Source: a virus. Taken from it: DNA of 31,901 nucleotides. Under the pieces are notes generated by a model. It had not been told where the DNA came from. It did no database searches and saw only the letters and a list, made by a program, of their open reading frames with translations. This document shows positions 12,874-28,318 of the stretch, in pieces (position 1 is the stretch's first letter; the number at the start of each line of letters is the position of its first letter). The position numbers and the translations under genes were made by a program. The stretch lies in IMG/VR virus record IMGVR_UViG_3300031198_000007, positions 1-31,901 of that record; one strand, 5' to 3'.

Positions 12874-13800
12874 CTAGTAGTCCCAGTTCACGCGACGCGT
12901 CGAGTTGGCGTCTCCGAAGTCGAACCACGCGGCACCATACTGGAACGCCAAGTCCTCGTCGGGGATGCGGGTCTGGTCCGACAGCATCGTCTTGATCCCC
13001 TCCTGCGCGAAGCTGATCCACGTCTGCCCCTGCTCGGAGCGGCCTTCACCCTTGTCGGTGATGAAGTGCCACTTCGCCCACGCCACCAAGAAGCTGTCGT
13101 AGTCCTGCGGGATGTCGAGTGCCCCGGTATCGCCGCTCGCGGTCGCCTGCGTCATCCGGCGGTAGTAGCGCAGTTGCAGGGCGTCGCTCGCGTTGGGCGG
13201 CAGCACAAGGCCGAGTGTGCCCTTGCCGCCGATGTTGAACACGTCGTAGTAGCTCGGGGTCGAGGTCTGGAACTCGTTGGGTGCGGAGCGGTCGTAGGAG
13301 CGCCGCCGCAGCGGGCGCAGCGTCACCTGTGCCGCCAAGAGCTTCGCGGTATAGGGCGCCTTCCACGCCGAGGGCAGCGCGTAGCGGTCGCGCACGACGT
13401 TGCTGGTGACGACCACCACGCCCGGCCCGATCGAGGGCAGGATCGTCGTGTTGATGCCGATCCCGCCGGCCGCGGTCGCCGTGACGCGCGTGCCAATCGA
13501 GAAACCGGGGCCGGTGACGAGGTCGTCCAAGACGAAGCCGTGGCCGGCCGGCGCCGCCGCCGAGGTGTTGGTCGCCGAGCAGGAGACGCCGGTGATGTTG
13601 AACGGGCCGAACACGTTGACCGGGACCGACTCGACCAAGAGGAAGTCCCAGTTCGCACGCGTGTTGAAAAATCCCACCGCCGCGTTCAGCGAACGAAACG
13701 CCCGCCCCTGCATGTCGGTGTCGGCCGACGCACCGACTGCGTCGGCAATCTCAAGAACCGCGGCCGAGACCGCCTTCGTTGATTGATTGAACAGGGCCAC
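12874..13800 (-). CDS. Head-tail adaptor (tail tubular protein A-like)
   Basis: A 308-residue protein from GTG 13800, placed directly after the stop of the GT4 gene. The segment LQLRYYRRMTQATASGDTGA then IPQDYDSFLVAWAKWHFITDKGE is the recurring motif of podovirus adaptor proteins (T7 gp11 / P22 gp4-like): YYR strand, 'IP' and then a long helix. The adaptor ring joins the portal to the nozzle, and the gene lies next to the nozzle gene. Residues about 70-150 (SCSATNTSAAAPAGHGFVL region) are a beta insertion. Ends NSTRRVNWDY. The family call rests on motif and position. Confidence 0.75.
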   Translation of the reverse strand: MALFNQSTKAVSAAVLEIADAVGASADTDMQGRAFRSLNAAVGFFNTRANWDFLLVESVPVNVFGPFNITGVSCSATNTSAAAPAGHGFVLDDLVTGPGFSIGTRVTATAAGGIGINTTILPSIGPGVVVVTSNVVRDRYALPSAWKAPYTAKLLAAQVTLRPLRRRSYDRSAPNEFQTSTPSYYDVFNIGGKGTLGLVLPPNASDALQLRYYRRMTQATASGDTGALDIPQDYDSFLVAWAKWHFITDKGEGRSEQGQTWISFAQEGIKTMLSDQTRIPDEDLAFQYGAAWFDFGDANSTRRVNWDY

Positions 13801-15135
13801 TCATGCCTCCACCGGCTGACCGTTGGCCTCGGCACTCGCAGCGGCGGCAGCGGCCTCCGCGGCTTCCTGCTCGGCACGCTGGGCCGCCTCGAACTTGTCC
13901 CACTGCCCGTCCGGCATGTGCGGCATCTCGCGCCGGTTCAGTTCCCGAAGCTGCTCGAAGTAGGCGAACTGCTTCGGCACCTGCTTGAAGGCGTCGCGGT
14001 TATCCGAGACCCAGTCCTTCGCGTTGCTCGCAAGGGTCTTTCGCAAGGTCGCGTCTTCGATCAGGAGCGAAAGCTGCGCGACGAACTCGGCCGGCGTCTC
14101 GAACAGCAGGCCGGTCTCCCCGGGCAGGATCTCGTCCTTGTAGGGGCCGGTCGCCTGCGCCAAGGTCGCCGCCGGCTTCTTCAGGACCGAGCCCTCGTAG
14201 AACTTGATCGCCGAGCGACAGCGGTTGAAGCGGTTGTTGTTGAGCGGTGCGAGGTTGATGTCGTGGTTCATCATCGCGAGCCGGAGCTTGTATTCCGGGT
14301 ACGGGCACCAGTTCTTGAACGTGTAGCGGTCCGGGGGGATCAGTTCCGTCACCCAGTTGTACATCTGCCCCCAGATCGTCCAGTGCACATGCGGGTACTT
14401 GCGCGTGATCTCGCCCAAGGCCTCGCGCAGCGGATACCAGTCCTCGTAGTGGCTCGCCCCACCCTGCCAGAGAATGTTGAGCCGCGCGGGATCCTGTGCC
14501 AACGCCACCTGCTCGTAGTGGTCGAAGCGCACCAGATTCGGGAACACCTGCACGCGCCGCGGCTTCGCGTCCGCCTTCACGCACGCCGCCACGTGCGGCG
14601 TCGAGCACGTCACCGCGTCCGCCATGTCGACGATCTGGCGATAGGTCTCGATGGTCTGGCGGTTGCGCGTGATGTCGAAGCCGTCCTTGCCGTCCTGCCA
14701 GAGCACCTTCTTCTCGCCGTTCTGCATCACGCCGATCATGTGCCCGGGCGGGATGTCCACCCCCTCGTGGTCGCGAATCCCCAAGCCCCGATAGGCGACG
14801 TTGTAGGGATTCACGTTGAACAGGTTGTCGTCGGTGTCGATCACCACGCTCGGGGGATACTTCCAGCCGCCGTCGCGCTTGGACGGCAGGAAGCGCTTCG
14901 CGGTCCGCAGATTCTGCAACGTCGCGTCGCTCACCGCCTGATACAACTGGATGATGTCGGCTTCGCAGAACGCCGTCATCCGCTGCTGCGGGTCCACCGA
15001 CCCGTCAGTGTCCACGTGCACACGGATCGGCAGCCCCAAGTCGCGTGCCGTGTGATACGGGACGAACAGGCGGTAGTAGAAGCTCGCGTTCCAGTTGCTC
15101 GGAATGTACGTGTAGAAGACGAGGGGCTCGGCCAT
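13801..15135 (-). CDS. Glycosyltransferase, GT4-like (GT-B fold)
   Basis: A 444-residue protein. Features of a GT4-type enzyme are visible: N-terminal strand LVFYTYIPSNW, VVIDTDDNLF near 97-106, VQVFPNLVRFD (the 'v-P-N-g-vD' element), LNILWQGGASHYEDWYPL (start of the C-terminal domain) and SAIKFYEGSVLKKPAATLAQ with a downstream GETGLLFETPAEF, equivalent to the E-x7-E donor-binding region. It should transfer a sugar from an NDP-sugar to an unknown acceptor. The last 40 residues are an Ala/Glu-rich tail. Unexpectedly, it sits between small head genes and the adaptor, with TAATG and TGA/GTG junctions, so it is co-expressed with virion proteins. Confidence 0.85.
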   Translation of the reverse strand: MAEPLVFYTYIPSNWNASFYYRLFVPYHTARDLGLPIRVHVDTDGSVDPQQRMTAFCEADIIQLYQAVSDATLQNLRTAKRFLPSKRDGGWKYPPSVVIDTDDNLFNVNPYNVAYRGLGIRDHEGVDIPPGHMIGVMQNGEKKVLWQDGKDGFDITRNRQTIETYRQIVDMADAVTCSTPHVAACVKADAKPRRVQVFPNLVRFDHYEQVALAQDPARLNILWQGGASHYEDWYPLREALGEITRKYPHVHWTIWGQMYNWVTELIPPDRYTFKNWCPYPEYKLRLAMMNHDINLAPLNNNRFNRCRSAIKFYEGSVLKKPAATLAQATGPYKDEILPGETGLLFETPAEFVAQLSLLIEDATLRKTLASNAKDWVSDNRDAFKQVPKQFAYFEQLRELNRREMPHMPDGQWDKFEAAQRAEQEAAEAAAAAASAEANGQPVEA

Positions 15136-15353
15136 TACTTCTTCCGGAACTTGGCGATCACGCGCTTGCCGAAGTTGACGAGCTTCTCGCCCGGCGTCTC
15201 GGCGTTGAACTCGGGATGCGCGCCGGGCTGAATACCGCCCCCGCTGCGCGCCGCACCCACGTTGCGGCTCTCCAAGTCGTTCGTCCGGAAACCGACCTTC
15301 ACGCTGTCGGGCCGCGACTTCACGGAACGCTTCCCAAAAATCGTCAGAGGCAT
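15135..15353 (-). CDS. Small basic hypothetical protein, 72 aa
   Basis: A 72-residue product from ATG 15353 (ATGA overlap with the upstream stop; its TAA shares a base with the GT4 ATG). Contains MPLTIFGKRSVKSRPDSVKV and ends GEKLVNFGKRVIAKFRKK, strongly basic at both ends. It belongs to the run of small genes between capsid and adaptor. It could be a minor head component or DNA-binding internal protein; no family recognised. Confidence 0.65.
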   Translation of the reverse strand: MPLTIFGKRSVKSRPDSVKVGFRTNDLESRNVGAARSGGGIQPGAHPEFNAETPGEKLVNFGKRVIAKFRKK

Positions 15354-15706
15354 CAGAGCGCCACCTTCCCGTCGATCATCGTCAGTTGCTTCGAGATCGG
15401 ATCCTTGCGCCGATCGTACGTGCAGTGCTGCGGGTGCTTGGAAAGCCACCGGTAGAAGTCCTTCTTGTTCTTCATCCAGTCCGGGTTCAGCACGTGCGCG
15501 AGCGACTCGATCGGCCCCTGCAAGCTCGCGACCCGGTAGAAGCCGTTCGCCTTCGCTGCCTCGTCGACACCCATCACCGTGCCCATGCGGTCCTGCTGGC
15601 GCAGTTCGTGGATCGCGTTGTAGCGGTCCGCGTACGCCGGATTCGCCGCCATCCGCTCGGTGACGAGATCCAGCGCCTCGTCCGACTTGTCGACGAAGAA
15701 GCTCAC
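15353..15706 (-). CDS. Small head-region hypothetical protein, 117 aa
   Basis: Begins at GTG 15706 (GTGA overlap upstream) and ends in an ATGA overlap. Charged, mostly helical (DEALDLVTERMAANPAYADR; KNKKDFYRWLSKHPQHCTYD), ending QLTMIDGKVAL. No family recognised; position next to the capsid genes suggests a minor virion or assembly protein. The frame continues upstream to 16135 but that part shadows other genes. Confidence 0.65.
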   Translation of the reverse strand: MSFFVDKSDEALDLVTERMAANPAYADRYNAIHELRQQDRMGTVMGVDEAAKANGFYRVASLQGPIESLAHVLNPDWMKNKKDFYRWLSKHPQHCTYDRRKDPISKQLTMIDGKVAL

Positions 15707-16020
15707 TTGGCCCCCGGCATCCCCGGATAGGGGTCGGCGTGGGTGCCACGCTTCGCGTCGCTGCCCTGAAGATCGTGCGCCTCGGAGCGCTTCGCCCAGT
15801 CGGGCGTGCCCGGGGCCGAGCCCTGTTCCGGCGAGTGGCCGACGAAGGTCGGATCGCTCATCGCGCCCGGGATCGGGCCGCCGCCGTCCGTCTGATACGG
15901 CGTCTCGCGCACGTTGTAGTCGGCCTCGATCGAGCCGAAGCCCTGAATCACGTCGGGATCCCAGCCGTTCTGCTTGCTGATGATCTTGAGCGAGCGCGAC
16001 TGGTTGTTCATGCGAGACAT
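15703..16020 (-). CDS. Hypothetical protein downstream of the capsid gene, 105 aa
   Basis: ATG 16020 follows AAGGAGAT at a seven-base spacing, a strong site. The protein is polar: SRMNNQSRSLKIISKQNGW, then GFGSIEADYNVRETPYQT, then a Gly/Pro-rich disordered second half (GGGPIPGAM ... DPYPGMPGAK). The position right after major capsid, with its own strong ribosome site, would suit an abundant head-associated or decoration protein, but no family is recognised. Confidence 0.6.
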   Translation of the reverse strand: MSRMNNQSRSLKIISKQNGWDPDVIQGFGSIEADYNVRETPYQTDGGGPIPGAMSDPTFVGHSPEQGSAPGTPDWAKRSEAHDLQGSDAKRGTHADPYPGMPGAK

Positions 16021-16046
16021 GCTGATCTCCTTTCCGGTTCAGCCGA

Positions 16047-16068
16047 GGCGGGGCCAACACGCCCCGCC
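16047..16068 (-). promoter_or_regulatory. Hairpin after the major capsid gene
   Basis: GGCGGGGC (16047-16054) and GCCCCGCC (16061-16068) form a perfect 8-bp stem with a 6-nt loop in the 66-bp gap between the capsid stop and the next start. No T-run follows on the leftward strand, so termination would be weak. A post-capsid attenuator or mRNA 3'-end protector is plausible, as many phages reduce read-through after the capsid gene. Confidence 0.5.
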
Positions 16069-16086
16069 CCAGCGTCCCCGAATGAA

Positions 16087-17091
16087 CTACGACACCAGAC
16101 CCGCGGCGCCCGTCACGAACGTGAAGGCCGCCCACGAGGACGGGTGCGAAAGCTCAAGGGTCAGTTCCATCAGGAGCAGCCCCTTGGTGTTGTCGCCGGT
16201 CTTGCCCATCTCCTTGTGCTGCGGCGGGCGGTAGAATGCGAGCTTGCCCATCGAGCGATCGCCGAGGAAGTAGGCGTAGCCGTTCGCCGACGTCGTCCCC
16301 ATCGGAATGAACCGATCGGTGATGACCGCGAACAACTGGTTGAACGGCGTCTCGAAGACGTCGATGTTCGCCACCAGCCGCTGATCCGTGGCCGCGATGT
16401 TGCGGACATTGATCGCCGTGCCCATCGTCTGATTCACGAACTGGAGCTTGCTGGACGGCGCGAACCAGACGGAGTCGGGCTCGGCACCGTTGTTGAACAT
16501 CGTCATCGCGAGATTGACCATGTCGCCGGTCGCGAAGACCGTCACCGCCGCGGCCGAGGCCGTGGAGATGGAGCCGCCGCCACCGAACAGACCGCGCAGA
16601 CCGACCATGAGCGGCGAGTTGGAAACCGCCGAGGACTCGATACCCGTTGCCGCCGAGGCGGTGATGGACGAGTTCTTGAAGATGGTGTACTCGCAGTTGC
16701 GGGCGAGCACCTTCATCTCCTTCATGATCTGGTGGTCGTACATATCGCGAATGCCGGCCGGGTTGGCAACCCGCTCGCGATCCGACACGGCCACGTCACG
16801 CCGGAAGATCTGCGTGTTGTTGTAGAGCCGCAGCGGCGTGGTGAGCGCGTCGCCCGCGTGCTCGGCGCCGTCCGGCGAGCCCGCCGACGAAACCGCCGTC
16901 AGCGAGTCGATCGGCCAGCTATGGACCACGTCCCGGGCTCGGATCTTCGGAGCACCCGAGAAGAACGGGGTCTGGAAGCTGTCGATGATGGTGAGAACGT
17001 CGGTCAGATCCTCGTGATGGACCGCACCGGCGCTCGGAAAGAACCCGATGTCGAACGTCGACAGCAGGTTGGCAGGAAGTGCACCAGCCAT
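16087..17091 (-). CDS. Major capsid protein, SU10/DUF5309-like
   Basis: A 334-residue HK97-fold candidate. The N-terminus HHEDLTDVLTIIDSFQTPFFSG then VVHSWPIDSL matches the opening of the SU10-type capsid family (E-DLsd-i--i-p--TPF, then -W--DsL). The middle has NPAGIRDMYDHQIMKEMKVLARNCEYTI-like helix and GDMVNLAMTMFNNGAEPDSVW; the C-terminus NTKGLLLMELTLELSHPSSWA is the usual closing strand. It is preceded by the scaffold gene and portal, the standard order. Start ATG 17091 has GGAGGGA upstream (in TCCAAGGAGGGA). It should be the most abundant virion protein. Confidence 0.85.
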   Translation of the reverse strand: MAGALPANLLSTFDIGFFPSAGAVHHEDLTDVLTIIDSFQTPFFSGAPKIRARDVVHSWPIDSLTAVSSAGSPDGAEHAGDALTTPLRLYNNTQIFRRDVAVSDRERVANPAGIRDMYDHQIMKEMKVLARNCEYTIFKNSSITASAATGIESSAVSNSPLMVGLRGLFGGGGSISTASAAAVTVFATGDMVNLAMTMFNNGAEPDSVWFAPSSKLQFVNQTMGTAINVRNIAATDQRLVANIDVFETPFNQLFAVITDRFIPMGTTSANGYAYFLGDRSMGKLAFYRPPQHKEMGKTGDNTKGLLLMELTLELSHPSSWAAFTFVTGAAGLVS

Positions 17092-17129
17092 TGTTCGCTC
17101 CCTCCTTGGAGCGGCAACCTCGTGACGTC

Positions 17130-17795
17130 TTACTTATTCAGGAAGTCGTCCGAGACCGCCTGTGACAACCGCGCCTTAGCGAAGGCCCGAGGATCGCCCG
17201 TCTTCTGGTAGTGCTCCCACGTCCGGTTCAGCCGCTCGTCCTGCTGGGCGGCCGGCTGGGTGCGCGCATCGCCGGCTCGGCTGCTCGGAATCTGCGCCTC
17301 AGAACGCGCGATCTGCTGCGGCGTCGAGTCCCCGTTCGGGTGCTCGCGACGCTTCACATCGCCGTACTTGAGAAACGCGAACTCCATCGCCGAGACCGGA
17401 TCCGCCGCGAACAGCTTCTGATAGCTCTGCGACAGGGAGGGGTCTTCGTTGATGAACTGGGCGACATCGGCCTCGTATTTCTGGTAGTCGGGGTGTGACG
17501 ACAGCATCGAGTTGCGGGCCATCGCGCCACGCGCGATCGGCTCGAACGTCTCGTTCACTCGCGAGCGAACGTATTCGTCGAGCGCATCCACCGGCACGCC
17601 ATATTCGGCAAGCCGGCTCGCGGGGTCGCCACGCTGGGGAACGGCCTGTCGCTGAACCTGCTGTTCGAGCAGGGTGCGGGCCGCCGCTTCCGCGGTGTCA
17701 GCGCGTTGACGCTGACGCTTCCCTTCGTCGCTCGACGATCGGTAAGCCTTCACCAGATCATCGACCGAATCGTATCCTGCAAACTCGTCTGCCAT
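17130..17795 (-). CDS. Scaffolding protein
   Basis: A 221-residue acidic, helical, mostly charged protein between portal and capsid, the normal scaffold position. N-terminus ADEFAGYDSVDDLVKAYRSS is typical of podovirus scaffolds, followed by a Gln/Arg/Ala coiled coil (KRQRQRADTAEAAARTLLEQ) and a Q/P/R-rich region before a helical C-terminus. Start ATG 17795 has AAGGA eight bases upstream; ATG 17804 overlaps that site and is less likely. It would guide capsid shell assembly and leave before or during DNA packaging. Confidence 0.75.
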   Translation of the reverse strand: MADEFAGYDSVDDLVKAYRSSSDEGKRQRQRADTAEAAARTLLEQQVQRQAVPQRGDPASRLAEYGVPVDALDEYVRSRVNETFEPIARGAMARNSMLSSHPDYQKYEADVAQFINEDPSLSQSYQKLFAADPVSAMEFAFLKYGDVKRREHPNGDSTPQQIARSEAQIPSSRAGDARTQPAAQQDERLNRTWEHYQKTGDPRAFAKARLSQAVSDDFLNK

Positions 17796-17810
17796 CTTGA
17801 GCATCCTTGC

Positions 17811-18125
17811 TCACGGGTTCGCCGTGCTTGGGGTTCCATCCCTCCCGCGGTCGAGTTCGTCGAGGCGGGCGTTGCGGTCGTGGACGAGAAGTTCGTTCTC
17901 CCACGCCGTCACCATCCACTCATCCTCACGGATCATCGCACGAAGCACATCGTCGTCCGTGTCGAAGACCGTCTTCGCGTAGCTCGTGGCTCGTTCGGAG
18001 CGCGAGAGCGTCAGCGCCTTGATCGCGGTTCGTGCCCGATCCGCGATCTTCGGCTTCATCACATCATTCCATCCGTCGCCGGTCAGCACAACCCGAATTT
18101 TGTTGATCTGGTCCTCGTTGAGCAC
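17811..18125 (-). CDS. Small hypothetical protein between portal and scaffold
   Basis: A 104-residue protein from GTG 18125, placed immediately after the portal stop (TAG 18126-18128). Helical and charged: LNEDQINKIRVVLTGDGWND, KPKIADRARTAIKALTLSRS, then MVTAWENELLVHDRNARLDE. Many podoviruses have a similar-sized protein here, but I do not recognise the family. Confidence 0.65.
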   Translation of the reverse strand: MLNEDQINKIRVVLTGDGWNDVMKPKIADRARTAIKALTLSRSERATSYAKTVFDTDDDVLRAMIREDEWMVTAWENELLVHDRNARLDELDRGRDGTPSTANP

Positions 18126-20057
18126 CTAGCCCCCTGTCCCGCCGGTCATGGTGCCCACCATCGAGGGCGCCGCGTTGTTGCCGAGCATCTGGAGCAGGCC
18201 CGGATTGAGCCCCTGCAAGGGCTGGCCGGCGGCGTTTGCCACCGCCATCGGGTCCATCCCGCTCTCCTGCGCCATCATGTTCACCATCGGCACCTGCTGG
18301 ACGAGCAGTTCGTCGACGTTCGGGTAGTCGAACAACTCGAACGCCTGCCGCGCGAAGTTGGCCCAGTTGACGATCTGCATCATCGCCGGGTTCGCGTTCA
18401 ACACCTGCAAGAGCGAGACGAGGTTCTGCTGGCGGACCGAGCGCGACAGCATCTGGCTCGCCCCCACCGCGCGGGCGCGGTAGTCGGGGACGAGGTCGTC
18501 TTGGTCAATCGACACGTCGGTCGACTGGTACGGGAGCCCGGTCCCGGGGTTCACCGTGGCGAGGCTCCCCAAGATCTTGATCTCATGCGGGAGGTCGAGC
18601 ATCACGCGGTCCTGATTGCGAAACTCGTTGGCGAGCGGCTCGACGAACTGTTCCTCCAAAAGCCGCGCCTCGAACGAGAGCCGCGTCATCACGTTCTCCT
18701 GCCGGCCGAGGAAGCCGCGCGCGGTCTCGCGATCGCCCTGCGAGAGACCCATGATGATGTCGTTGATGCCCACGCCCAACTGCATGAACTGCCAGAGTTG
18801 GCCGATCTCCTGATACGCGGCCTGCACCCCCTGCATGTTGGGCGCCATCGCGCGGACGTTGCTGTCGTCGGCGGCACCGTCCACCAAGAGGATCCGCCCC
18901 GCGCGCGTGAACAGGTTCTGCGAGTTCACGTTCGCCGAGTTCGACATCACCCACATCGGGTCGATCAGTTGATCGAGCGCGTCGAGCTTCTGGTTGGCAA
19001 GCCGGTTGGCGGTCATCTGCGGGCCGTAGGCGACCTCCGCCTTGCCGACGCCGTCGAAGCTGTAGGGGTCGGGCATCGGCGCGTAGGAGAGCCACGGCTT
19101 CTTGCCCGGGAACTGGCTGGGCCGGTTCTTCAGGACGACGCGGCCGTTGCCGATCGCGATGCAGCGATCGCGAATCCCGTCGGGTGCGAACTCGGCCGGC
19201 ACCGTCCCGTGCATCTCCCACACCTCGATCGGCTTGTTGAAGCGCAGGGACGAGCGCGCGGTGTAGTCGTATTCGTTGCGGTACATGACGCGGCGCTCCT
19301 GAAACATCGTCTGCGCCCCTTGGCCCATCGGGTAGTCGCGCAAGAGGCGGACCGCGATCGGGTCGAAGTAGCCGTCCGGCTGCTGGGCATCCTCCAGCAT
19401 CTCGTCCAAGTCGAGCCAGTAGCGCTCGATCGCCCAGTCCATGTCCTCGATCCGCTTCTTCGCCGGCTGCTGCCAGAAGTCGAGCCGGTCAATCGCCTTC
19501 CACGTCGGGCCGTTGAATAGTTCGCTGTCCTGCTCATGCAGTACCGGCACCCGCAGCCCCGGGGCGATCGACTCGTAGCGGACGAACTTCGACTTGCGAA
19601 CGGTATGCTTCCAGCCGTAGCGCGCGACCGCGGTGCCGCAGATGTCGGCTTGCAGCATGAAGTCCACGGCGTTCAGGAGCGAGCCGCAGTCCTTCATCTG
19701 GGCCGAGATCAGGACGCTGTTCTTCTTGGCCCGCCCGACGTCTTCCGGTGCGTACCCTTCAAACTCGACGATCGGCCATGCGCCGAACGTGGTCTGCACC
19801 TTGCGCGCGACGTCCGACTGGATCATCGCGAAGGTGAAGGGCAGCGTCACGTTGTTGCGAAACTGCGAGAGCCGCCCCTGCCAGTAGCCGCGGTAGCTGT
19901 TGTACCAGTTCTGGAGGCGCGCGAAGATCGAGTAGTTGTAGCGCAGCGACTCCTGCCGGCGGGTGTCGACCAGTTCGATCGTCCGCGCACTGCTCGGCCC
20001 CGCCACGCGGGAGTCGCGCGACGGGGCGCCGGTGTTCAGATTGATTCCGGAGGCCAT
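18126..20057 (-). CDS. Portal protein
   Basis: A 643-residue protein forming the dodecameric DNA entry/exit channel. Typical features are RYNYSIFARLQNWYNSYRGY with WQGRLSQFRNNVTLPFTFAM at the N-terminus, a run through QADICGTAVARYGWKHT, the clip-like region with DFWQQPAKKRIEDMDWAIER, and a long C-terminal half with FLGRQENVMTRLSFEARLLE and a Gln/Met/Gly-rich tail. Position after terminase and before scaffold and capsid is diagnostic. Start ATG 20057 lies after AAGG with context AGGCCACGGATGGC, shared exactly with the gene at 27747. Confidence 0.85.
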   Translation of the reverse strand: MASGINLNTGAPSRDSRVAGPSSARTIELVDTRRQESLRYNYSIFARLQNWYNSYRGYWQGRLSQFRNNVTLPFTFAMIQSDVARKVQTTFGAWPIVEFEGYAPEDVGRAKKNSVLISAQMKDCGSLLNAVDFMLQADICGTAVARYGWKHTVRKSKFVRYESIAPGLRVPVLHEQDSELFNGPTWKAIDRLDFWQQPAKKRIEDMDWAIERYWLDLDEMLEDAQQPDGYFDPIAVRLLRDYPMGQGAQTMFQERRVMYRNEYDYTARSSLRFNKPIEVWEMHGTVPAEFAPDGIRDRCIAIGNGRVVLKNRPSQFPGKKPWLSYAPMPDPYSFDGVGKAEVAYGPQMTANRLANQKLDALDQLIDPMWVMSNSANVNSQNLFTRAGRILLVDGAADDSNVRAMAPNMQGVQAAYQEIGQLWQFMQLGVGINDIIMGLSQGDRETARGFLGRQENVMTRLSFEARLLEEQFVEPLANEFRNQDRVMLDLPHEIKILGSLATVNPGTGLPYQSTDVSIDQDDLVPDYRARAVGASQMLSRSVRQQNLVSLLQVLNANPAMMQIVNWANFARQAFELFDYPNVDELLVQQVPMVNMMAQESGMDPMAVANAAGQPLQGLNPGLLQMLGNNAAPSMVGTMTGGTGG

Positions 20058-20078
20058 CCGTGGCCTTTCTGCGCTCGC

Positions 20079-20909
20079 CTACGCGGGCGCTTCGACTCCG
20101 ACGTGCAGCCATCGGTCGCGAAACGCGGGCCATGTGTCCCGCAGTTCGCGTTCCGTGTCGTTGATCTGATTCTCGCCCAAGTTCGACCAGATGACCTTCG
20201 CGTACTCGCCGATCGGGTCGTGCACCCGCACGCAGGGGATCCCCAGCAAGCTCGCCAAGACCACGTTGGAAGACCCCGAGCCGATCACCATCTTCGCATT
20301 CGCCATGAACTCGGCGAGCTTCAAGAAATCCCCCTGATCGTCGAAGGAAGTCCACTGCGGGTAGACCTCCAAGGCGCGCGCGCGTTCCTCGTCCGTCCCG
20401 ACGAAGACGATCTCGTCGAAGCGGGTTGCCAGATCGTCGGCCTGATCGGAGAGGAAGCGCCAGAAGCCCGGAACACCGCTCATATGGCTCATGAACGTCC
20501 CGTGCAGGACCAACCGGCGGTGCTCGATCGCGGGGGAGACCACCGTCAGGCAGCGCTGGTTATCGCGCCGAGTGATCGAGAGCGGCACCTGATCGAGTGC
20601 GTCGAGCGTGATTTGGCGCATCGGGAAGCGGCGCATCCCGAGGTGGTAGATCTCGTGGTCCATGTGGTCCTTCATCGAGAGGCCGAAGTCCCACGGCTGC
20701 CCGCCCATATGCCAACTGGTGATCCCCGGCTTCAACTCGACGGCGTCGACGAACGGCTGTGCCGCGAACAGCTTCACCAGCGGCTTGCAGGTCGTCTCGT
20801 CGAGCCAGATCGTGCACGTCGTCTTCTGGTCCACGCAGTACCAGTAGGCGACCGGGAACTCGTGGAGCGAATCGCCCAGCTTGCCGGGCATCGTGAAGAC
20901 GAGGCTCAT
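20079..20909 (-). CDS. GT9-like glycosyltransferase (heptosyltransferase-type)
   Basis: A 276-residue protein from ATG 20909 (ATGA overlap with the methyltransferase); the frame upstream is a shadow. The N-terminus FTMPGKLGDSLHEFPVAYWY resembles the G-x-x-GD-x-l---P loop of GT9 ADP-heptose transferases. The C-terminal segment FLKLAEFMANAKMVIGSGSS then NVVLASLLGIPCVRVHDPIG fits the donor-site 'ig-dSG--hla-alg-P' motif. It is shorter than typical GT9 enzymes (about 320-350), with variant residues, so substrate and activity are uncertain. It sits between the large terminase and portal genes, paired with a sugar methyltransferase. Confidence 0.65.
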   Translation of the reverse strand: MSLVFTMPGKLGDSLHEFPVAYWYCVDQKTTCTIWLDETTCKPLVKLFAAQPFVDAVELKPGITSWHMGGQPWDFGLSMKDHMDHEIYHLGMRRFPMRQITLDALDQVPLSITRRDNQRCLTVVSPAIEHRRLVLHGTFMSHMSGVPGFWRFLSDQADDLATRFDEIVFVGTDEERARALEVYPQWTSFDDQGDFLKLAEFMANAKMVIGSGSSNVVLASLLGIPCVRVHDPIGEYAKVIWSNLGENQINDTERELRDTWPAFRDRWLHVGVEAPA

Positions 20910-22111
20910 AGGACCAGTCCGATGTCGGGCAGGGGATACAGGAACGTGGTGCCGGCGGCGCGGACGTGCGCTTCGCGGATGTCGAACTCGGGCTTGAACG
21001 CCCACGGCAGCGCCAAGGCGTAGCGCGGCGCCGCCTCGCGGAACTCGGCCTCGCTCTTGATCGGCAGCCACGTGCCGACCATCCGCAGGCCGTGCTTGCG
21101 CGCGTTGCGGTCGGCGACCGCCTCGAAATACTCGTGCATGTCGAGGTACTGCATCAGGGTCGAGCCCTTGGTGGACGCCCCGTAGGCCCACAGGTGGGGG
21201 CCGATGTTCGCGATCAGGTTGCCGAAGACGTGGCGCCACTTCCGCACGCGCTTCGCGAACGCCTCGGCGTCGTCGCTGGAGACGTTCGCGATGCCGCCCA
21301 ACAGCCCGACCGGGGGCGAGAGGACGCCCGAGGCGCGGCGCGCGATGACGCGCATCGAGGATCCGTTCGTCTCGTTGAAGGAGATGGATTCGATCAGGAG
21401 GCCGTGGCGGCGGTAGAGAGCGTCCAAGCTCCACGCGTCGTAGTAGCAGACGTGCTCGTGACAGATCGCGTCGAACGCGTTCTGCTGGAGCATGGAGGGG
21501 GCGTCGTTCAGTTGGTTGATCCAGATGCCGTGCTCGGTGAGGGAGTCGTAGATGTCATCGAGGAAGGGACCGGGGCGGTCCAAGTCGTAGAACATCGCGG
21601 CCGAGGTGATGACGTTGAAGCGCTCGCCGCCGGTCGCCTTGGCCGTGAAGTAGTCGCTGACGACGTGGTCGGCCAGTTCCTGAAGCTCGCTCGCGAAGTT
21701 CAACGCCGGCTCGACCGCGACCTTGCGAAACTCCTGACTCACGCACGAGAGCAGGTAGCCGTCGTTCGCCCCGATGTCCAGCCACGCGCCCGCGGTGAAG
21801 AACATCTCGCCCACCCGCACGATGTCGGCGAGCGAGGCGCGCATCGACTCGTTGATGCCGCTGCGATACCAGAACTCTCGGTACAGCAGGTCGGGATCGA
21901 CGGTGTGCGCGAGTTGCAGCAGGCCGCACTCGGCGCAGCGGATCAATTCGAGGGGCGCCTTCGGGAGGTCGGTGTCGGCTTCGGGGACGAAGCGGGGCAG
22001 ATACTGGACGCCGAGGTCCAAGATCGGCATCAGGTGGTGGGATTCGCAGGCGCGACAGGTCGCGCGCGGTTGGAAGATCGGCGTTGCGGTGCTCTGGGGC
22101 GCTGGCTTCAT
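20906..22111 (-). CDS. Sugar C-methyltransferase-like (class I SAM methyltransferase)
   Basis: A 401-residue protein from ATG 22111 (ATGA overlap with the terminase stop). Three domains are seen in the order of NDP-sugar C-methyltransferases of the TylC3/NovU type: an N-terminal zinc-binding part (CRACESHHLMPILDLG, C19/C22 and CAEC, C59/C62); a SAM-binding core with LDIGANDGYL at 111-120; and a C-terminal half with LWAYGASTKGSTLMQYL, the glycine-rich motif of the C-terminal domain. These enzymes methylate a sugar ring carbon of a keto-sugar nucleotide. No nucleotide-sugar dehydratase is present, so the substrate must come from the host. It is paired with the GT9-like gene. Confidence 0.85.
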   Translation of the reverse strand: MKPAPQSTATPIFQPRATCRACESHHLMPILDLGVQYLPRFVPEADTDLPKAPLELIRCAECGLLQLAHTVDPDLLYREFWYRSGINESMRASLADIVRVGEMFFTAGAWLDIGANDGYLLSCVSQEFRKVAVEPALNFASELQELADHVVSDYFTAKATGGERFNVITSAAMFYDLDRPGPFLDDIYDSLTEHGIWINQLNDAPSMLQQNAFDAICHEHVCYYDAWSLDALYRRHGLLIESISFNETNGSSMRVIARRASGVLSPPVGLLGGIANVSSDDAEAFAKRVRKWRHVFGNLIANIGPHLWAYGASTKGSTLMQYLDMHEYFEAVADRNARKHGLRMVGTWLPIKSEAEFREAAPRYALALPWAFKPEFDIREAHVRAAGTTFLYPLPDIGLVL

Positions 22112-23988
22112 GATCTGATCGGCTCCCGGGGACAGTCCCTGATCCATTCCGCGGCCTCACTGTCGTCGAACATCTCGCGCGCGAGCCCTTCCACCGCCAT
22201 CGCGGTCGCGCCCGGCTCGTAGGGCGCCTTCTGCGGACCGACCCGGCGCATCGGCTGGTAGAACTCGGGCTGGAAGGCGTCCGAATGGGCGTCAGCCCAG
22301 TCGTTTCGCAGCTTCGGGTTCACCATGTACTGCCCGATTTTCGCCATCTGCTCGGCGATGCGCTCCACCCCGGGAGCAGACTCTACCACCCTTACATGAC
22401 CGTCAACCCAAAAGGAGGCCGCCGAGACCATCCGCATGTACTTTTTCGTGTCCCCGCGGTTGTACTCGTAGTAGGGGGGCATCGGCTCGTTCGCGTCGGC
22501 GAAGAAGTTCTTCAGATTCGCCGCCAGCGAACCTTTCAGCCCCGCGCGGGCGGTTTCGCCGGAGATCCCGATGATGCGCCGCCCCTGCCGGCGATAACGC
22601 TGGACGGTCGCCACCAAGCGGTGCCCGAAGTCCTCCATGCGCCACGTCGGCGAGCCGTAGGCTTCGATGATGTAGACGTCGCCGCTGCCGTTTCTCGGGT
22701 AGCCGTGGACGATCATGACGGTCTCGTCCTTCTTCTCGCGGCTCTTGCCGTCCCAGAAGGCGATGTCGGTGGTGATGCCGAAGCGCAGGGAGGACCACGG
22801 CACCTCGGAGGACTTGATGTAGCACTGCTTGATCTGGTCCTTCGTGATCGGGTTGAACTCCGAAAGCTCGGGGTCGTTCATCACCTGTGAAGCGAAGCGC
22901 AAGGGATCGCGGCGCTGGTAGTCGTTCAGCCGCGTCTCGGGCCACACCTTCGGGCTCGTGGGCTTGCCCGCCGCGTCGCGGCCGGCGAGGAAATACACGT
23001 CCCACTTCCCTTCCGGGCTCGCCTCCATCGACTCGCAGGGCATCCCCGCCAAGGAGCGGATGCCTTCCTCGCGGAATGCGACGCCGAAGTGATCCTCGTC
23101 GTCGTAGCGCGTCCCGACCCAGACGACGATGCCGTCGCTCTGGAGCACGGGAAAGAGACTCGTCACCTGCGAGTTGACCGAGGTCAGCCAGTTCTCGTCG
23201 GAGAGCATCCGCTCGTAGCTGATCGGGTCGTCGTAGAAGATCGCGTCGGGATGTGCACCGACGATCGAGGTCTCGACGGCGAAGGTGCCAAGGCTCGGAT
23301 CGGCGCGTGAGGTCTGCTTGCGCGCGGAGTGGGTCATCGCGGTCGCGGTCCACTGCCGGGCGTTGGCGGCCCAGTTGCCGTAGAGCTTCGTGAACAACGA
23401 ATAGGGGTCCGAGCCGTCCAAGACTCCGCGCATGATGCTGGCGAGCTTGGTCGCGAGTTGGATGCTTTCAGACCCCGTGTAGCTGGACAGTTCCGGGTCG
23501 CGTAGGTGGAGCCAGAGTTGCCCGGCCGCCGAGATCATCCGGCTCTTGCCCATCTCGCGGTGCACGAGGACCGCGAGGTGCTTCTGGAGCGTCAAGCCCT
23601 TGGCGCGGTTCTCCAGCCATTCCTCGACGTTCTTCTGATACCAGTTCGCCATCGGCTCGTGAATCGCGGGGTCGATCCACTTCTGCCCTTTGGGCGAACG
23701 GCCGTCGCCGAAGCAGTGCAGGAAGAACGTCCAGAAATCGCGCCGGCCCAACTCGCGCATCAATTCGAGTTCGTCGTCGCTCTGCCAGCCGCCGATGTGG
23801 CGCGCCATGCCGGCGCGGGCGGCGGCACGCAGTTTGTTCCGCGCGGCGGTGCGAACCTTGTTGTAGCAGGTCCAGCACTCGCCGCGACGCGATTGACCGG
23901 GTGGCATCTCCCTCTTGCAGTTCGCGCAGAACTTGAGAAGGGGAGTCAGCTTCGGGTTATTGGGATCCTTCGCTGTGAAGCGGGCCAT
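22108..23988 (-). CDS. Terminase large subunit with N-terminal zinc-ribbon
   Basis: A 626-residue DNA-packaging motor. Walker A-like HREMGKSR (143-150), Walker B AIFYDD (249-254) and the coupling motif VWVGTRYDDEDHF (about 289-301) define the ATPase. The nuclease starts at ITTDIAFW with Asp408 and continues to DAHSDAF near the C-terminus. Start ATG 23988 has AAGGAC upstream and overlaps the small-subunit gene by 32 bp; an earlier start (24027) would add 13 residues. Unusually, residues 21-41 carry CxxC-x13-CxxC followed by a basic helix, a zinc-ribbon extension not typical of TerL, which might help select DNA ends or bind the small subunit. Confidence 0.9.
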   Translation of the reverse strand: MARFTAKDPNNPKLTPLLKFCANCKREMPPGQSRRGECWTCYNKVRTAARNKLRAAARAGMARHIGGWQSDDELELMRELGRRDFWTFFLHCFGDGRSPKGQKWIDPAIHEPMANWYQKNVEEWLENRAKGLTLQKHLAVLVHREMGKSRMISAAGQLWLHLRDPELSSYTGSESIQLATKLASIMRGVLDGSDPYSLFTKLYGNWAANARQWTATAMTHSARKQTSRADPSLGTFAVETSIVGAHPDAIFYDDPISYERMLSDENWLTSVNSQVTSLFPVLQSDGIVVWVGTRYDDEDHFGVAFREEGIRSLAGMPCESMEASPEGKWDVYFLAGRDAAGKPTSPKVWPETRLNDYQRRDPLRFASQVMNDPELSEFNPITKDQIKQCYIKSSEVPWSSLRFGITTDIAFWDGKSREKKDETVMIVHGYPRNGSGDVYIIEAYGSPTWRMEDFGHRLVATVQRYRRQGRRIIGISGETARAGLKGSLAANLKNFFADANEPMPPYYEYNRGDTKKYMRMVSAASFWVDGHVRVVESAPGVERIAEQMAKIGQYMVNPKLRNDWADAHSDAFQPEFYQPMRRVGPQKAPYEPGATAMAVEGLAREMFDDSEAAEWIRDCPREPIRS

Positions 23989-24544
23989 CCACGACGTCCT
24001 TGTCGTTGCGTACCACCGCGTCGCCATCGGCGAGCGCCTGCTGTGCGTCCGCGCGCTCTCGCGCGGCTCGTTCCACTTCGAGCTTCAGTGCCTGATCCTG
24101 ACACCACGCGGCCTTGATCGCGATGGATCTGCCGCTCGGGAAGCCGCGCGGCACCCCGCGGATCTTCGCCTCGGGGTACGCCTTGTTCAGCATCTTCAGG
24201 CTGGTGATGCGCTTGGCACGGAAGCGCATCTCGGGGGTTGCGTCCTCGGCCTCCGGCTTCGGCTTGAAGACGGTCGTCCGGTTCGCGTTCGGAAACGCGT
24301 AGCCGTACGCCGCCTGCGTCAGTCGGGCTCCTGCCCCTTTCATCACGCGCGCGAGACGTTCCACCACTTCGCCATCCGCCTGCGGCTCGGGCATGACGAC
24401 GCTGGCACTCTCGGTGGTCGCGAGCATCTTGAGTGCTCGGAAGCGGTCGGCGCCGGCCTCGGGATCACGCGCGACCTCGGTGACGTGATCCAAGATCTCG
24501 TCCAAGGACATGCGTCGCTTCTGGGGGAGGGTCTCGATCGTCAT
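23957..24544 (-). CDS. Terminase small subunit (by position)
   Basis: A 195-residue protein from ATG 24544 (ATGA overlap). N-terminal helices (MSLDEILDHVTEVARDPEAG, RFRALKMLATTESA) and a charged C-terminal helix (LKLEVERAARERADAQQAL) suit a DNA-binding, oligomerising terminase small subunit, and it directly precedes and overlaps the large subunit. The middle (GVPRGFPSGRSIAIKAAWCQ) is basic. No helix-turn-helix is certain. The call is mainly positional. Confidence 0.6.
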   Translation of the reverse strand: MTIETLPQKRRMSLDEILDHVTEVARDPEAGADRFRALKMLATTESASVVMPEPQADGEVVERLARVMKGAGARLTQAAYGYAFPNANRTTVFKPKPEAEDATPEMRFRAKRITSLKMLNKAYPEAKIRGVPRGFPSGRSIAIKAAWCQDQALKLEVERAARERADAQQALADGDAVVRNDKDVVDGPLHSEGSQ

Positions 24545-25344
24545 TTGTAGAGGTTCCCGTCGACCAGCCAGTAGGCGGCGGGAGCCGCGAGTTGGCGGCT
24601 CGACTCGGTGCCGCTGATGAAGCCGGTCGGGAACGCGCGGCTCGCCTGAGAGATCCAGCCCTGCGCGCCACCGCCGATCGGGTTGCCGACCAAGGAGACG
24701 CCCTGCTGCACGGTGGCGGGTGCCGCCCATGTGCCGGTGTCGGTGGTCGGACCGAAGTCGAAGGAGTTGTAGACCGCGATTAGGTTGGGGGTCGCGTTGG
24801 AGCCGGCGGTGAAGGTCGTGATCGTATCGTCGTCGCCGGTGCCGGTGTTGTCCTGATGCGCGCCCTGAACGAACTGGGTGGCGCCGATCAGGCGAAACAC
24901 GATGATGGAAATCGCTTCCAAAGCGGGGTCGTTGAGCGAGATGGTCAGGTTGGCGGTCGCGGTCGCGCTGACCAAGAGGACGAACGTGTCGGTCAGGATG
25001 ACGCTGTTGCCGCCCGGGTTGGTCTGCGCGAGTGGGGTCGCGCCCCACGTGACGCTCGGGAACACCGCGAGTGTTCCGTCATTGGCGGCGGCGACGTAGC
25101 AGCATAGGAGCGTGCCAGCCTGTACGGTCAGGTTCATGACCGAGAGCGTGATCGAGGTGCCGCTGCCGGTATCGGTGCCGATCGCCTCGTAGACGAGCGG
25201 TGTCACGACCGCGCCCCCCGCGCCTTCGACGTAGCCCGAGAGGACCACCTCGCCGAAGGGCTTGCGCTCGAAGCTGCAACGCGGGCAGCGCGCCCCCTGT
25301 AGCGGAGCACCGCAGTAGTTGCAGGTCTGGGGCCAGTTACTCAT
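24541..25344 (-). CDS. Virion beta-sandwich protein with N-terminal zinc ribbon
   Basis: A 267-residue protein. Residues 8-23 (CNYCGAPLQGARCPRC) are a compact CxxC-x8-CxxC zinc ribbon. The rest is a Thr/Val/Gly-rich beta domain (VYEAIGTDTGSGTSITLSVM, TLLCCYVAAANDGT, VSATATANLTISL) that matches the style of phage structural and head-fibre beta-sandwich proteins with 'tGsgTsit-sv' strands. It could be a head decoration or surface-binding protein, and thus a candidate substrate of the nearby sugar-transfer enzymes. Location between the transferases and terminase is unusual for a tail protein. Overlaps both neighbours. Confidence 0.6.
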   Translation of the reverse strand: MSNWPQTCNYCGAPLQGARCPRCSFERKPFGEVVLSGYVEGAGGAVVTPLVYEAIGTDTGSGTSITLSVMNLTVQAGTLLCCYVAAANDGTLAVFPSVTWGATPLAQTNPGGNSVILTDTFVLLVSATATANLTISLNDPALEAISIIVFRLIGATQFVQGAHQDNTGTGDDDTITTFTAGSNATPNLIAVYNSFDFGPTTDTGTWAAPATVQQGVSLVGNPIGGGAQGWISQASRAFPTGFISGTESSRQLAAPAAYWLVDGNLYK

Positions 25345-25546
25345 CGGGGATCTTCTGCGGGGGCGGGCCGAACGCCTGCGCCTCGCCGTCCTTGTAGACG
25401 ATCACACCCCAGTCGTGCGGACCGTTCTCGGGACGCGCGTCCACACACCAGTAGTCGGCCCCCTCGGCCGGGCGGCGCGTCTGGACGTCCTCGCACGAGT
25501 AGACGAGCGACGCCCCGCAACGGCATTTGGTCTTCCACGCGCTCAT
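25337..25546 (-). CDS. Small Cys-motif hypothetical protein, 69 aa
   Basis: Product of ATG 25546 with GAGAGG eight bases upstream. Short: KCRCGASLVYSCEDVQTRRP then DYWCVDARPENGPHDWGVIV. Four Cys with nearby His suggest a small zinc-stabilised fold. Its last codons overlap the next start by 8 bp. Unknown function. Confidence 0.6.
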   Translation of the reverse strand: MSAWKTKCRCGASLVYSCEDVQTRRPAEGADYWCVDARPENGPHDWGVIVYKDGEAQAFGPPPQKIPDE

Positions 25547-25548
25547 CG

Positions 25549-26289
25549 CTACATCCTCTCCCGAACCGCCTTCACGATACGCTTGCGCTCGGTGATGCAC
25601 CAGCGCGCGAAGCGCTCGCAGTCCTCGGCCGGCAGCCCGCTGGAGCCGAGGGTGGGCTGGTAGTCGTGGATGACCTCGACGTCGGAGGTCTTGGCGTACA
25701 CCATGCGGGTCGCGTCGCCGACCAGTTCCATCGCGGTGTCCCAGTACCACGCGTGCGCCGACGAGGGAATGGCGTAGTAGCCGATCGCCCCGACCATGTT
25801 CGCCGAGAGGGCGTAGAAGTTGATGTACTCGGCGTGGCCGCCGTCGTGGGCAAGCCCAACCACGCCGATCTGGTTGGGGAAGCCGTGGATGGTGCGGATC
25901 AGGTACTGGTCCCAGCCGGCTGGTCTGATCGTGGAGTCGTCGGTCATGTAGGTGAAGATGTTCGCCTGTGGGAACAGGCGGCGCAGCCCCGCCTCGGGGT
26001 GCTCGCCGTGGACGGCTTGGCAGAGCGTGTTGATTGCGTTCACGGGTCCGAAGCGCGGGCCAATCACGATCGTGAAGCGCGGGTCGGAGTCGCGCACGCG
26101 CAGGTAGGTGTTGTTCCCGGGCTTGTCGACCCGCACGACATGCGCCGGCAGCCCCTCGTAGAGCGCTTCCTGATCGGCGTCGACGTAGGCGAGGACGCAC
26201 GCCCGCGAGGTGTCGCGCACCGACTCCCACGCCTTCAGGAGCAATTCGGGCCGGTTGCGGCTCGGGATCAGGACGACGACTTCGTTCAT
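25549..26289 (-). CDS. GT2-like glycosyltransferase A
   Basis: A 246-residue protein from ATG 26289 (ATGA overlap). The N-terminal strand-loop VVVLIPSRNRPELLLKAWES, the acidic YVDADQEA and the central YMTDDSTIRPAGWDQYLI pattern match GT-A fold GT2 transferases (nucleotide-sugar strand and a D-D metal site). The C-terminal part has DVEVIHDYQP and a basic tail. It is a clear paralogue of the next gene (shared P-S-R-x-R-P-E, a DD metal box and GWD). It presumably transfers sugar residues to an unknown acceptor. Confidence 0.75.
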   Translation of the reverse strand: MNEVVVLIPSRNRPELLLKAWESVRDTSRACVLAYVDADQEALYEGLPAHVVRVDKPGNNTYLRVRDSDPRFTIVIGPRFGPVNAINTLCQAVHGEHPEAGLRRLFPQANIFTYMTDDSTIRPAGWDQYLIRTIHGFPNQIGVVGLAHDGGHAEYINFYALSANMVGAIGYYAIPSSAHAWYWDTAMELVGDATRMVYAKTSDVEVIHDYQPTLGSSGLPAEDCERFARWCITERKRIVKAVRERM

Positions 26290-26939
26290 CGCAGCACCGC
26301 CCGCAACTTCGCGAGGTCGGCGGCGAAGTCCTGCGTGATGTAGGCCAAGAACTCGTAGACGTCGGCGCGCGCGGCTTCCTGATAGCCGTCTCGGCGGACG
26401 ACGTGATGGACCACCGCCTCGGGCGCGATCTGTGTGATGCGATTCAACGCGATCGCGAGCACTTCGATGACGGTGTCGACGCAAAAGTTCTTCAGGCGCG
26501 GACACTCCAGCCAGCCGAGGGTCTCGATCCAGCGCCGCGAGACGCACGGGAAGTTCACGTGCGGCAGGCCGTTGTCGGAGGCGAGATGCACGCAGCCGAT
26601 GTCGTCTCCGAAAGCATCCATCGCGGCGATCACCTCGGCGTCCCAGCCCTTGCGCGTGAACGTGCAGTCGTCGGCGGTGACGAGAAACATCCGATACGTC
26701 TCTCCGAAGCTGTGCGCCAGCGCGTTGACCGCGCCGACGCGGCCGACCGGAGCGCCGATGACGGTGAACACCCGGTCCTTGTATTCGAGGTGAGACCACG
26801 AATCCCAGTAAGCGGCGAGGTCGTCCACGTCGTTGTATATCAGGACGTCCGCACGGCTCGTCGTGAGCGCGGTCGCGATCATGGTGTGCAACGCCTCGGG
26901 GCGCCCGCGCGAGGGACAGACGATCGCGAGTGGCTTCAT
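26286..26939 (-). CDS. GT2-like glycosyltransferase B
   Basis: A 217-residue protein from ATG 26939 (ATGA overlap with the FkbM gene). Opening LAIVCPSRGRPEALHTMIAT, acidic YNDVDDLAAY and FLVTADDCTFTRKGWDAEV are the same landmarks as its downstream neighbour, in the same order, so the pair likely arose by duplication and divergence. Both are short GT-A domains without a membrane segment. C-terminus ends in a helix (DFAADLAKLRAVLR). Confidence 0.75.
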   Translation of the reverse strand: MKPLAIVCPSRGRPEALHTMIATALTTSRADVLIYNDVDDLAAYWDSWSHLEYKDRVFTVIGAPVGRVGAVNALAHSFGETYRMFLVTADDCTFTRKGWDAEVIAAMDAFGDDIGCVHLASDNGLPHVNFPCVSRRWIETLGWLECPRLKNFCVDTVIEVLAIALNRITQIAPEAVVHHVVRRDGYQEAARADVYEFLAYITQDFAADLAKLRAVLR

Positions 26940-27532
26940 CGGACGTAGATCCAGTCGAACTCCATGTGCTCGACCATGCGATAGCCGTGGGGTGCTAAGT
27001 GGGCGGCGATCGCCTGCTGGTCTTCATCGGCGACCGACTCGACGATGAACGCCTTCGGCAACCAGTGCCCGATGTCGAGCCCCTTCAAGACATCGAGTTC
27101 GGTGTGCTCGACGTCGATGCTGACCAAGTCGAGGCGCGGAAAGGCGTGCTTCTCCAGAAGCTGATCGAGCGTTCGCACGTTGATGATGTGCCGGTTGTAG
27201 AAGTGCTTGGAGTCGCTATAGCGCAACGAAGACTCCGACATCGGGGCGGCGGGGTTGACGTAGAAATAGGCGTCGTCCTGCGACGCGGCGCCCGCCGCAC
27301 AGATTTCAACCAACGTGCGGCGCTTGCGTAGCACGTCCTCGTACTCCGAGTTCGCTTCGATGCACAGCACGGTCCAGCCACGCACCTCGGCGGCGATCGT
27401 GTTGCTGTTGAACCAGCCGTCGTTGGCACCCGCGTCGATCGCGTATCCACTATCGAGCGGCAGGTTGTTGAAGACCCACTGCTCCTGTCCGGCGCTCGAA
27501 TAGTGCGTACGGCCCCGAAAAAGCCGAATCAC
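26936..27532 (-). CDS. FkbM-family methyltransferase
   Basis: A 198-residue SAM methyltransferase from GTG 27532 (GTGA overlap). Motif I reads AIDAGANDGWFNSNT (31-45), followed by TVLCIEANSEYEDVLRKRR, and the family element LVSIDVEHTELDVLKGLD near 140-157. FkbM-type enzymes usually O-methylate sugars or polyketides, and in phages and surface-polysaccharide clusters they cap glycans. It starts a three-gene transferase run (FkbM, GT2, GT2). Confidence 0.85.
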   Translation of the reverse strand: MIRLFRGRTHYSSAGQEQWVFNNLPLDSGYAIDAGANDGWFNSNTIAAEVRGWTVLCIEANSEYEDVLRKRRTLVEICAAGAASQDDAYFYVNPAAPMSESSLRYSDSKHFYNRHIINVRTLDQLLEKHAFPRLDLVSIDVEHTELDVLKGLDIGHWLPKAFIVESVADEDQQAIAAHLAPHGYRMVEHMEFDWIYVR

Positions 27533-27943: not shown

Positions 27944-28079
27944 CGGCGTCCTCCAGTGAAATGAGTTCATCGACGATCTTGTTGAGACCCTCGTCCCGCC
28001 CGTCGATCCCCCAGATCGGGTCGATGGGGTAGAACACGAGCCTCGCCCACAGCCACTTCTTCCGCAACCACCGCGTCAC
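27921..28079 (-). CDS. Small hypothetical protein, 52 aa
   Basis: GTG 28079 is in a GTGA overlap. Strongly basic, aromatic N-terminus (TRWLRKKWLWARLVFYPIDP) then an acidic end. It may sit on a membrane or bind nucleic acid. No family recognised. Confidence 0.5.
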   Translation of the reverse strand: MTRWLRKKWLWARLVFYPIDPIWGIDGRDEGLNKIVDELISLEDADVAAHRD

Positions 28080-28318
28080 GTGATCTTCACGCGCGGATCG
28101 ACGCGCGCCTTCCCGCTCGCCGCGGCGTCCGCGAGGCACTGGTCGATCTCGGTCATCAAGCGATTGCGTTCGAGATTGAGATTCACCGAGCGCGCGACGG
28201 TTTCGGGGCCGACGCCGGTGCCGTTGGTATTAGCCTTATGCAGTTCGTCTTGTACGAACCACAGTTTGATATTCGTGATTGAGAGGCGGTCGACGAGGTC
28301 GCCGAGGGTGTGGCTCAC
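28076..28318 (-). CDS. Conserved-looking 80-aa protein often seen near glycosyltransferases
   Basis: GTG 28318 (GTGA overlap). HTLGDLVDRLSITNIKLWFV and LNLERNRLMTEIDQCLADAA follow a recurrent pattern I have seen in short helical proteins encoded near glycosyltransferases in phages and bacteria (LgdLiDrLSI-NiKlW, then L-R-N-LieEID). I cannot name the family with certainty. Four genes downstream the FkbM/GT2 block begins, which fits that association. Confidence 0.6.
   Translation of the reverse strand: MSHTLGDLVDRLSITNIKLWFVQDELHKANTNGTGVGPETVARSVNLNLERNRLMTEIDQCLADAAASGKARVDPRVKIT

Follow-up and report, generated by a model that had tools for sequence, protein, structure and literature searches.

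What are six sugar-modifying enzymes doing among the genes with which a podovirus builds its head? The question is raised by a stretch of 31,901 nucleotides (the window), positions 1-31,901 of IMG/VR record IMGVR_UViG_3300031198_000007, from an uncultivated soil virus of bacteria. Here, genes for a GT4-type, a GT9-type and two GT2-type glycosyltransferases (GTs), a sugar 3-C-methyltransferase (CMT) and an FkbM-type methyltransferase stand among terminase, portal, capsid and adaptor genes. We found that GT4, GT9 and CMT are core genes of an uncultivated lineage and co-diverge with its capsid and portal, and that FkbM does not. A virion-linked glycan is, from these gene comparisons, the best-supported reading of the cassette, although unproven.

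All six genes are intact minus-strand open reading frames with coding-type base composition, and the enzyme class given to each in an earlier, sequence-only reading of the stretch found family or fold support:

13801..15135, minus strand: GT4-type (GT-B) glycosyltransferase, 444 aa (PHROG 7162 glycosyltransferase, 1.4e-26)
20079..20909, minus strand: GT9-type (heptosyltransferase-like) glycosyltransferase, 276 aa (AlphaFold model, pLDDT 84.7)
20906..22111, minus strand: sugar 3-C-methyltransferase, CMT (Methyltransf_13/23/14), 401 aa (Pfam, 3.7e-23)
25549..26289, minus strand: GT2-type (GT-A) glycosyltransferase b, GT2b, 246 aa (PHROG 14945, 2.5e-11; Asp-Asp motif)
26286..26939, minus strand: GT2-type (GT-A) glycosyltransferase a, GT2a, 217 aa (PHROG 14945, 3.3e-13)
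26936..27532, minus strand: FkbM-type S-adenosylmethionine (SAM) methyltransferase, 198 aa (Pfam PF05050, 8.2e-15; 55.8 bits, cut-off 22.7)

Dozens of related contigs were collected by scanning IMG/VR with the major capsid protein (MCP) and CMT as queries, while a portal scan with a single sequence returned two loci only. CMT and GT9 were present in 26/26 contigs spanning the large terminase subunit (TerL) to the portal, GT4 in all 26 contigs spanning MCP to the adaptor, and FkbM was visible in 25 of 26. Part of the contig set had been found by the CMT query, but the contigs found with MCP yielded the same universality. Because the simple gene caller missed genes in some lower-GC relatives, a gene was, where possible, scored as absent on the basis of tblastn or six-frame profile searches. 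The remaining content varied, with 0 to 5 GT2 copies and one or more FkbM genes per contig. Distances of GT4, GT9 and CMT followed those of MCP (rho 0.75, 0.72 and 0.60, respectively; 0 of 500 permutations as high), and over capsid, portal, terminase and adaptor the same three gave rho values of 0.35-0.75. For FkbM against MCP rho was 0.01, a value computed on best matches as FkbM is often present in several copies per contig. In the close GT and methyltransferase pairs listed, GT2 and FkbM included, dN/dS was about 0.02-0.17, indicating purifying selection.

The association of GT4 with the capsid gene extended further. Scanning with a GT4 profile brought in relatives of 25-46% identity, and in every contig where both genes were visible (53/53) GT4 followed MCP on its 3' side and the same strand; as these wider loci were picked for having GT4, the count tests linkage and not the frequency of GT4 absence. 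GT4 and MCP distances were correlated over 50 taxa with a rho of 0.87. The two genes were separated by 4-6 kb in the more distant members, and in the distant aquatic relatives scanned this gap held a methyltransferase, a GT2, a PIG-L deacetylase and a WbqC-like gene, suggesting a slot specialised for glycan genes. The interval between MCP and GT4 of one distant relative also contained a protein kinase domain match (L218:6959-7990, 5.7e-9).

The interleaving with head genes described in the sequence-only reading was confirmed. Overlaps of 4 nt join TerL to CMT, CMT to GT9, FkbM to GT2a and GT2a to GT2b, GT4 and the adaptor abut with 0 nt between them, and the cassette is split over three sites among the following genes:

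12874..13800, minus strand: SU10-type adaptor (Pfam PF24175, 1.7e-10), its start abutting the GT4 stop
16087..17091, minus strand: SU10-type MCP (Pfam PF17236, 3.8e-47)
17130..17804, minus strand: probable scaffold protein (position and synteny only)
18126..20057, minus strand: SU10-type portal (Pfam PF23899, 1.5e-13)
22108..23988, minus strand: TerL (PHROG 38, 1.6e-36), overlapping CMT by 4 nt
23957..24544, minus strand: probable small terminase subunit, TerS (position and synteny only)

MCP, portal and adaptor all matched SU10 Pfam families and, judged by this head module, the virus is an SU10-like podovirus. Minus-strand calls run from about 30.4 kb down to about 2 kb, with opposite-strand genes past both ends, and the block holds further structural genes and lysis genes in addition to those above. 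The stretch had been taken for a 32-kb genome, which did not hold: IMG/VR contig 3300031184_000008 matches 17,977 nt of it at 100% identity and extends 7,979 nt past its end, so that the window covers only part of a genome that measures at least 39.9 kb (40-44 kb in relatives). A peptide-pattern search of 84,980 species genomes for prophages or hosts returned no relatives of the MCP or CMT profiles, and no lineage members were detected among the phage records searched.

We place a probability of roughly 0.6 on the cassette being late, cytosolic glycan-building machinery that decorates the virion during head assembly. The inheritance of its core with the shell protein across the virus group suggests self-glycosylated particles, and a virion-linked glycan is favoured because GT4, GT9 and CMT equal the capsid genes in universality and diverge in step with them, and because signs of a flippase, of membrane association or of a hydroxymethylase were lacking in the searches described below. 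In the simplest model, soluble enzymes would glycosylate and methylate a virion protein late in infection, with host nucleotide sugars as donors. A protein-linked sugar would be started on the capsid, the adaptor or a surface protein, perhaps by GT4, the one enzyme found beside MCP throughout; GT9 and the GT2 enzymes would lengthen it, and C- and O-methylation would modify it. The backbone of the glycan would be set by the fixed GT4/GT9/CMT core, and exchangeable GT2 and FkbM enzymes could diversify its outer sugars, with effects on adsorption, stability or recognition.

The absence of sugar-nucleotide biosynthesis noted in the sequence-only reading held beyond the window: 16 records contained no NTP_transferase (nucleotidylyltransferase) and a single NAD-dependent epimerase-family gene, which is not from this virus, so the donors are probably host nucleotide sugars. 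That epimerase-family gene, the sole sugar-nucleotide enzyme in the 16 records, lies among the GT2 genes of one relative (G029 contig 33306-33914, about L110:3734-4342).

A more ambitious version, which we offer only tentatively, would make head glycosylation a core function in which GT4 and MCP were already evolving together when the soil and aquatic branches separated, GT9 and a branched-chain C-methyl-sugar pathway were added in the soil branch, and swappable GT2 and FkbM genes provide every virus with a particle 'serotype' of its own.

Several observations weigh against virion decoration. The SU10-like phages MW202710, phiM5 and Lyrsu01 have no annotated GT at the corresponding site, which indicates that glycosylation is not a general requirement of the head. 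Late expression of the cassette would follow from gene position, and the lineage is known from the sequences of uncultivated viruses. Lipid-linked host precursors on the inner side of the membrane are also possible substrates of soluble GTs. Finally, the GT2 profile, the only one compared, matched the GTs of the Corndogvirus phages Firecracker and Catdawg with a probability of 0.1-19%, that is, with no sequence relation, and the function proposed for those genes is transferred here by analogy of placement.

The main rival would have the enzymes remodel host-envelope glycans late in infection; by altering lipopolysaccharide or capsule precursors they would keep released progeny from sticking to debris or shut out competitors. 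GT9 has the heptosyltransferase fold of lipopolysaccharide cores, and PIG-L and WbqC, seen in relatives, occur in surface polysaccharide loci. We nevertheless consider this explanation unlikely, since no flippase, polymerase or initiating-transferase family was detected among 125 other proteins of related contigs and the window cassette has no predicted transmembrane segment (a single weak one appeared in GT9 of two relatives only), while the genes are embedded among head genes rather than in an early or lysogeny module and GT4 tracks the MCP phylogeny. Glycosylation of modified bases in phage DNA, the best-known role of phage GTs, would fit the ArdC antirestriction gene of the same virus and the partial cytosine-5 DNA methylase matches in 3 of 16 relatives (G007:38033-38350, G028:4021-4329 and G029:21021-21323). 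The window virus, however, had no cytosine-5 methylase match, the thymidylate-synthase-type hydroxymethylase family (PF00303) was absent from the 16 records with a positive control, and the genes lie in the head operon; a search for TET/JBP dioxygenases gave no match, but its control was likewise blank, so that this search carries no weight against TET-dependent DNA glycosylation. We know of no DNA role for sugar C-methyltransferases or GT9 enzymes and regard this explanation as highly improbable. Hardly any weight, and marginally the least, falls on the set being loose moron cargo, acquired gene by gene and without a functional virion system: the variable middle segment and an FkbM that does not track the capsid tree would agree with it, but the universality, synteny, co-divergence and strong purifying selection of GT4, GT9 and CMT disfavour cargo as the whole explanation.

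The sequence-only reading had also proposed a virion-linked glycan as a system without precedent. Universality and co-divergence support the first part, whereas the placement proved to be known. Gene order in Corndogvirus (cluster O), taken from the Firecracker and Catdawg records, places a methyltransferase and three GT genes within the head operon, in the interval from portal to capsid protease: in Firecracker an O-methyltransferase gene comes first, then a hypothetical gene, a GalNAc-transferase gene and a glycosyltransferase gene, and in Catdawg all three corresponding genes are annotated as glycosyltransferases. Capsid modification has been proposed for these genes (Firecracker gp33-36, Corndog gp35-38; PMC4351075), and PMC12363180, citing Freeman 2023, names Che8, Corndog and Myrna as phages with glycosylated proteins and describes Corndog gp38 as essential for capsid glycosylation. 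Unlike the window virus, these phages are long-tailed and have an O-methyltransferase with no C-methyltransferase annotated. By these gene-content comparisons the placement principle is thus already known from Corndogvirus, and what differs here is the virus type (a podovirus), the spread of the cassette over three sites, the enzyme families and the lineage-wide status of the core.

Two other phages resemble the window virus in part. In the podovirus ctQWt234 (MW202801, Manatee Spring), TerL, portal and MCP are followed by an Fe-S oxidoreductase, a GT, PhyH, a methyltransferase, a NodB-like protein and another GT before further structural genes; the last GT matches the window GT4, but the other enzymes differ, neither CMT nor GT9 was detected in the stretch scanned, and the arrangement is known from the record annotation only. 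Streptomyces phage KimJongPhill (Zukovirus) encodes in gp4-6 a GT related to the window GT4 (26%) and a methyltransferase directly upstream of the terminase, yet has an 82.5-kb genome, another head module and its own UDP-glucose dehydrogenase. None of the annotated phage records searched contained the exact combination of GT4, GT9, sugar 3-C-methyltransferase and GT2/FkbM.

Virion glycosylation has so far been reported for few phages, namely the mycobacteriophages Che8, Corndog and Myrna, and has been discussed mainly as a shield against antibodies. The present data identify a glycan gene set as a core, capsid-linked trait of soil and water podoviruses, in which a constant core is combined with reshuffled tailoring genes. 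Should the particles prove to be glycosylated, glycans on phage particles would have an ecological role that does not depend on animal immunity, and the close pairing of GT4 with the capsid would provide a small system for testing that role.

Among the six enzymes CMT was the best supported, with three Pfam domains over the cut-off. Its profile matched D-mycarose 3-C-methyltransferase over the full length (4rv9, 1.6e-54) and TcaB9 (1e-45) in a PDB profile search, its zinc-type cysteines and HEH..YY motif were invariant across 28 sequences, and its architecture is that of TylC3/TcaB9, with a zinc-binding N-domain, a SAM domain and a C-terminal Methyltransf_14 domain carrying the EH motif. D-mycarose 3-C-methyltransferase and TcaB9 act on dTDP-sugars supplied by neighbouring biosynthesis genes, whereas none were found in the window virus. 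The CMT match of one relative (L064:1098-3323) lies inside a 741-residue frame, about twice the normal length, which may be a fusion or an assembly fault.

GT4 matched Pfam Glyco_trans_1_2 below the cut-off (0.00098) and a PDB profile at 1.6e-4, and its putative GT-B assignment derives from sequence; Glu314 in the C-domain is invariant and a CRSxIKxYE block is conserved. GT9 had no sequence-family match, and as PDB sequence profiles gave nothing beyond chance matches for GT9 and GT2, folds were used instead. The GT9 model aligned with WaaC over 244 residues (Z 16.6, root-mean-square deviation (rmsd) 3.5) and with 1psw at 7e-7 in Foldseek, and Asp13, an N-terminal residue of catalytic type, was present in at least 90% of alignment rows. 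The fold prediction for the GT2 enzymes covers GT2a only (pLDDT 94.5), whose model aligned with WrtF and similar GT2 enzymes over 188-190 residues (Z 18.5, rmsd 2.4); the Asp-Asp donor motif of GT2 is present. On these models GT9 is placed with WaaC/TibC, with which it shares the fold and the position of Asp13 but only 10-14% identity, and GT2 with GT-A enzymes of the GT2 family. TibC glycosylates a protein. The VIA-align list for GT9 also includes NDH-PSI supercomplex chains of similar fold. Neither GT9 nor GT2b had a tblastn match in 50,697 phage records.

Two neighbouring genes complete the picture of the region:

24541..25344, minus strand: Ser/Thr-rich protein (20% Ser/Thr) with an N-terminal zinc-ribbon-like segment (DZR 0.0026, below cut-off)
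28076..28318, minus strand: DUF4254-like small accessory protein (Pfam 3.6e-5, just under cut-off; synteny; alignment)

The DUF4254-like protein, of about 80 aa, belongs to the sugar set and in relatives is usually encoded between GT9 and portal; on the distant contig L026 (6949) such a gene lies near FkbM and CMT genes. FkbM and CMT homologues also occur no more than 4 kb apart in an uncultured 735-kb phage (LR756501.1, 318571-322545).

The Ser/Thr-rich gene sits between GT2b and TerS, and its product is a candidate virion surface protein and a candidate acceptor of the glycan. Upstream of TerS, relatives encode dissimilar proteins with a common N-terminal Cys-rich, zinc-ribbon-like segment (L080:3490-4284, L080:4301-4921 and L069:6106-7227), followed by variable domains that are often beta-rich or beta-helical; these may serve as interchangeable proteins of the virion surface or in receptor binding.

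Past the window end, the same virus encodes the ArdC-type antirestriction protein, with a metallopeptidase domain (L100:18050-18940). An early-region protein of this virus carries pentapeptide-like repeats (L101:3688-4221); in the protein set scanned, two members matched pentapeptide families.

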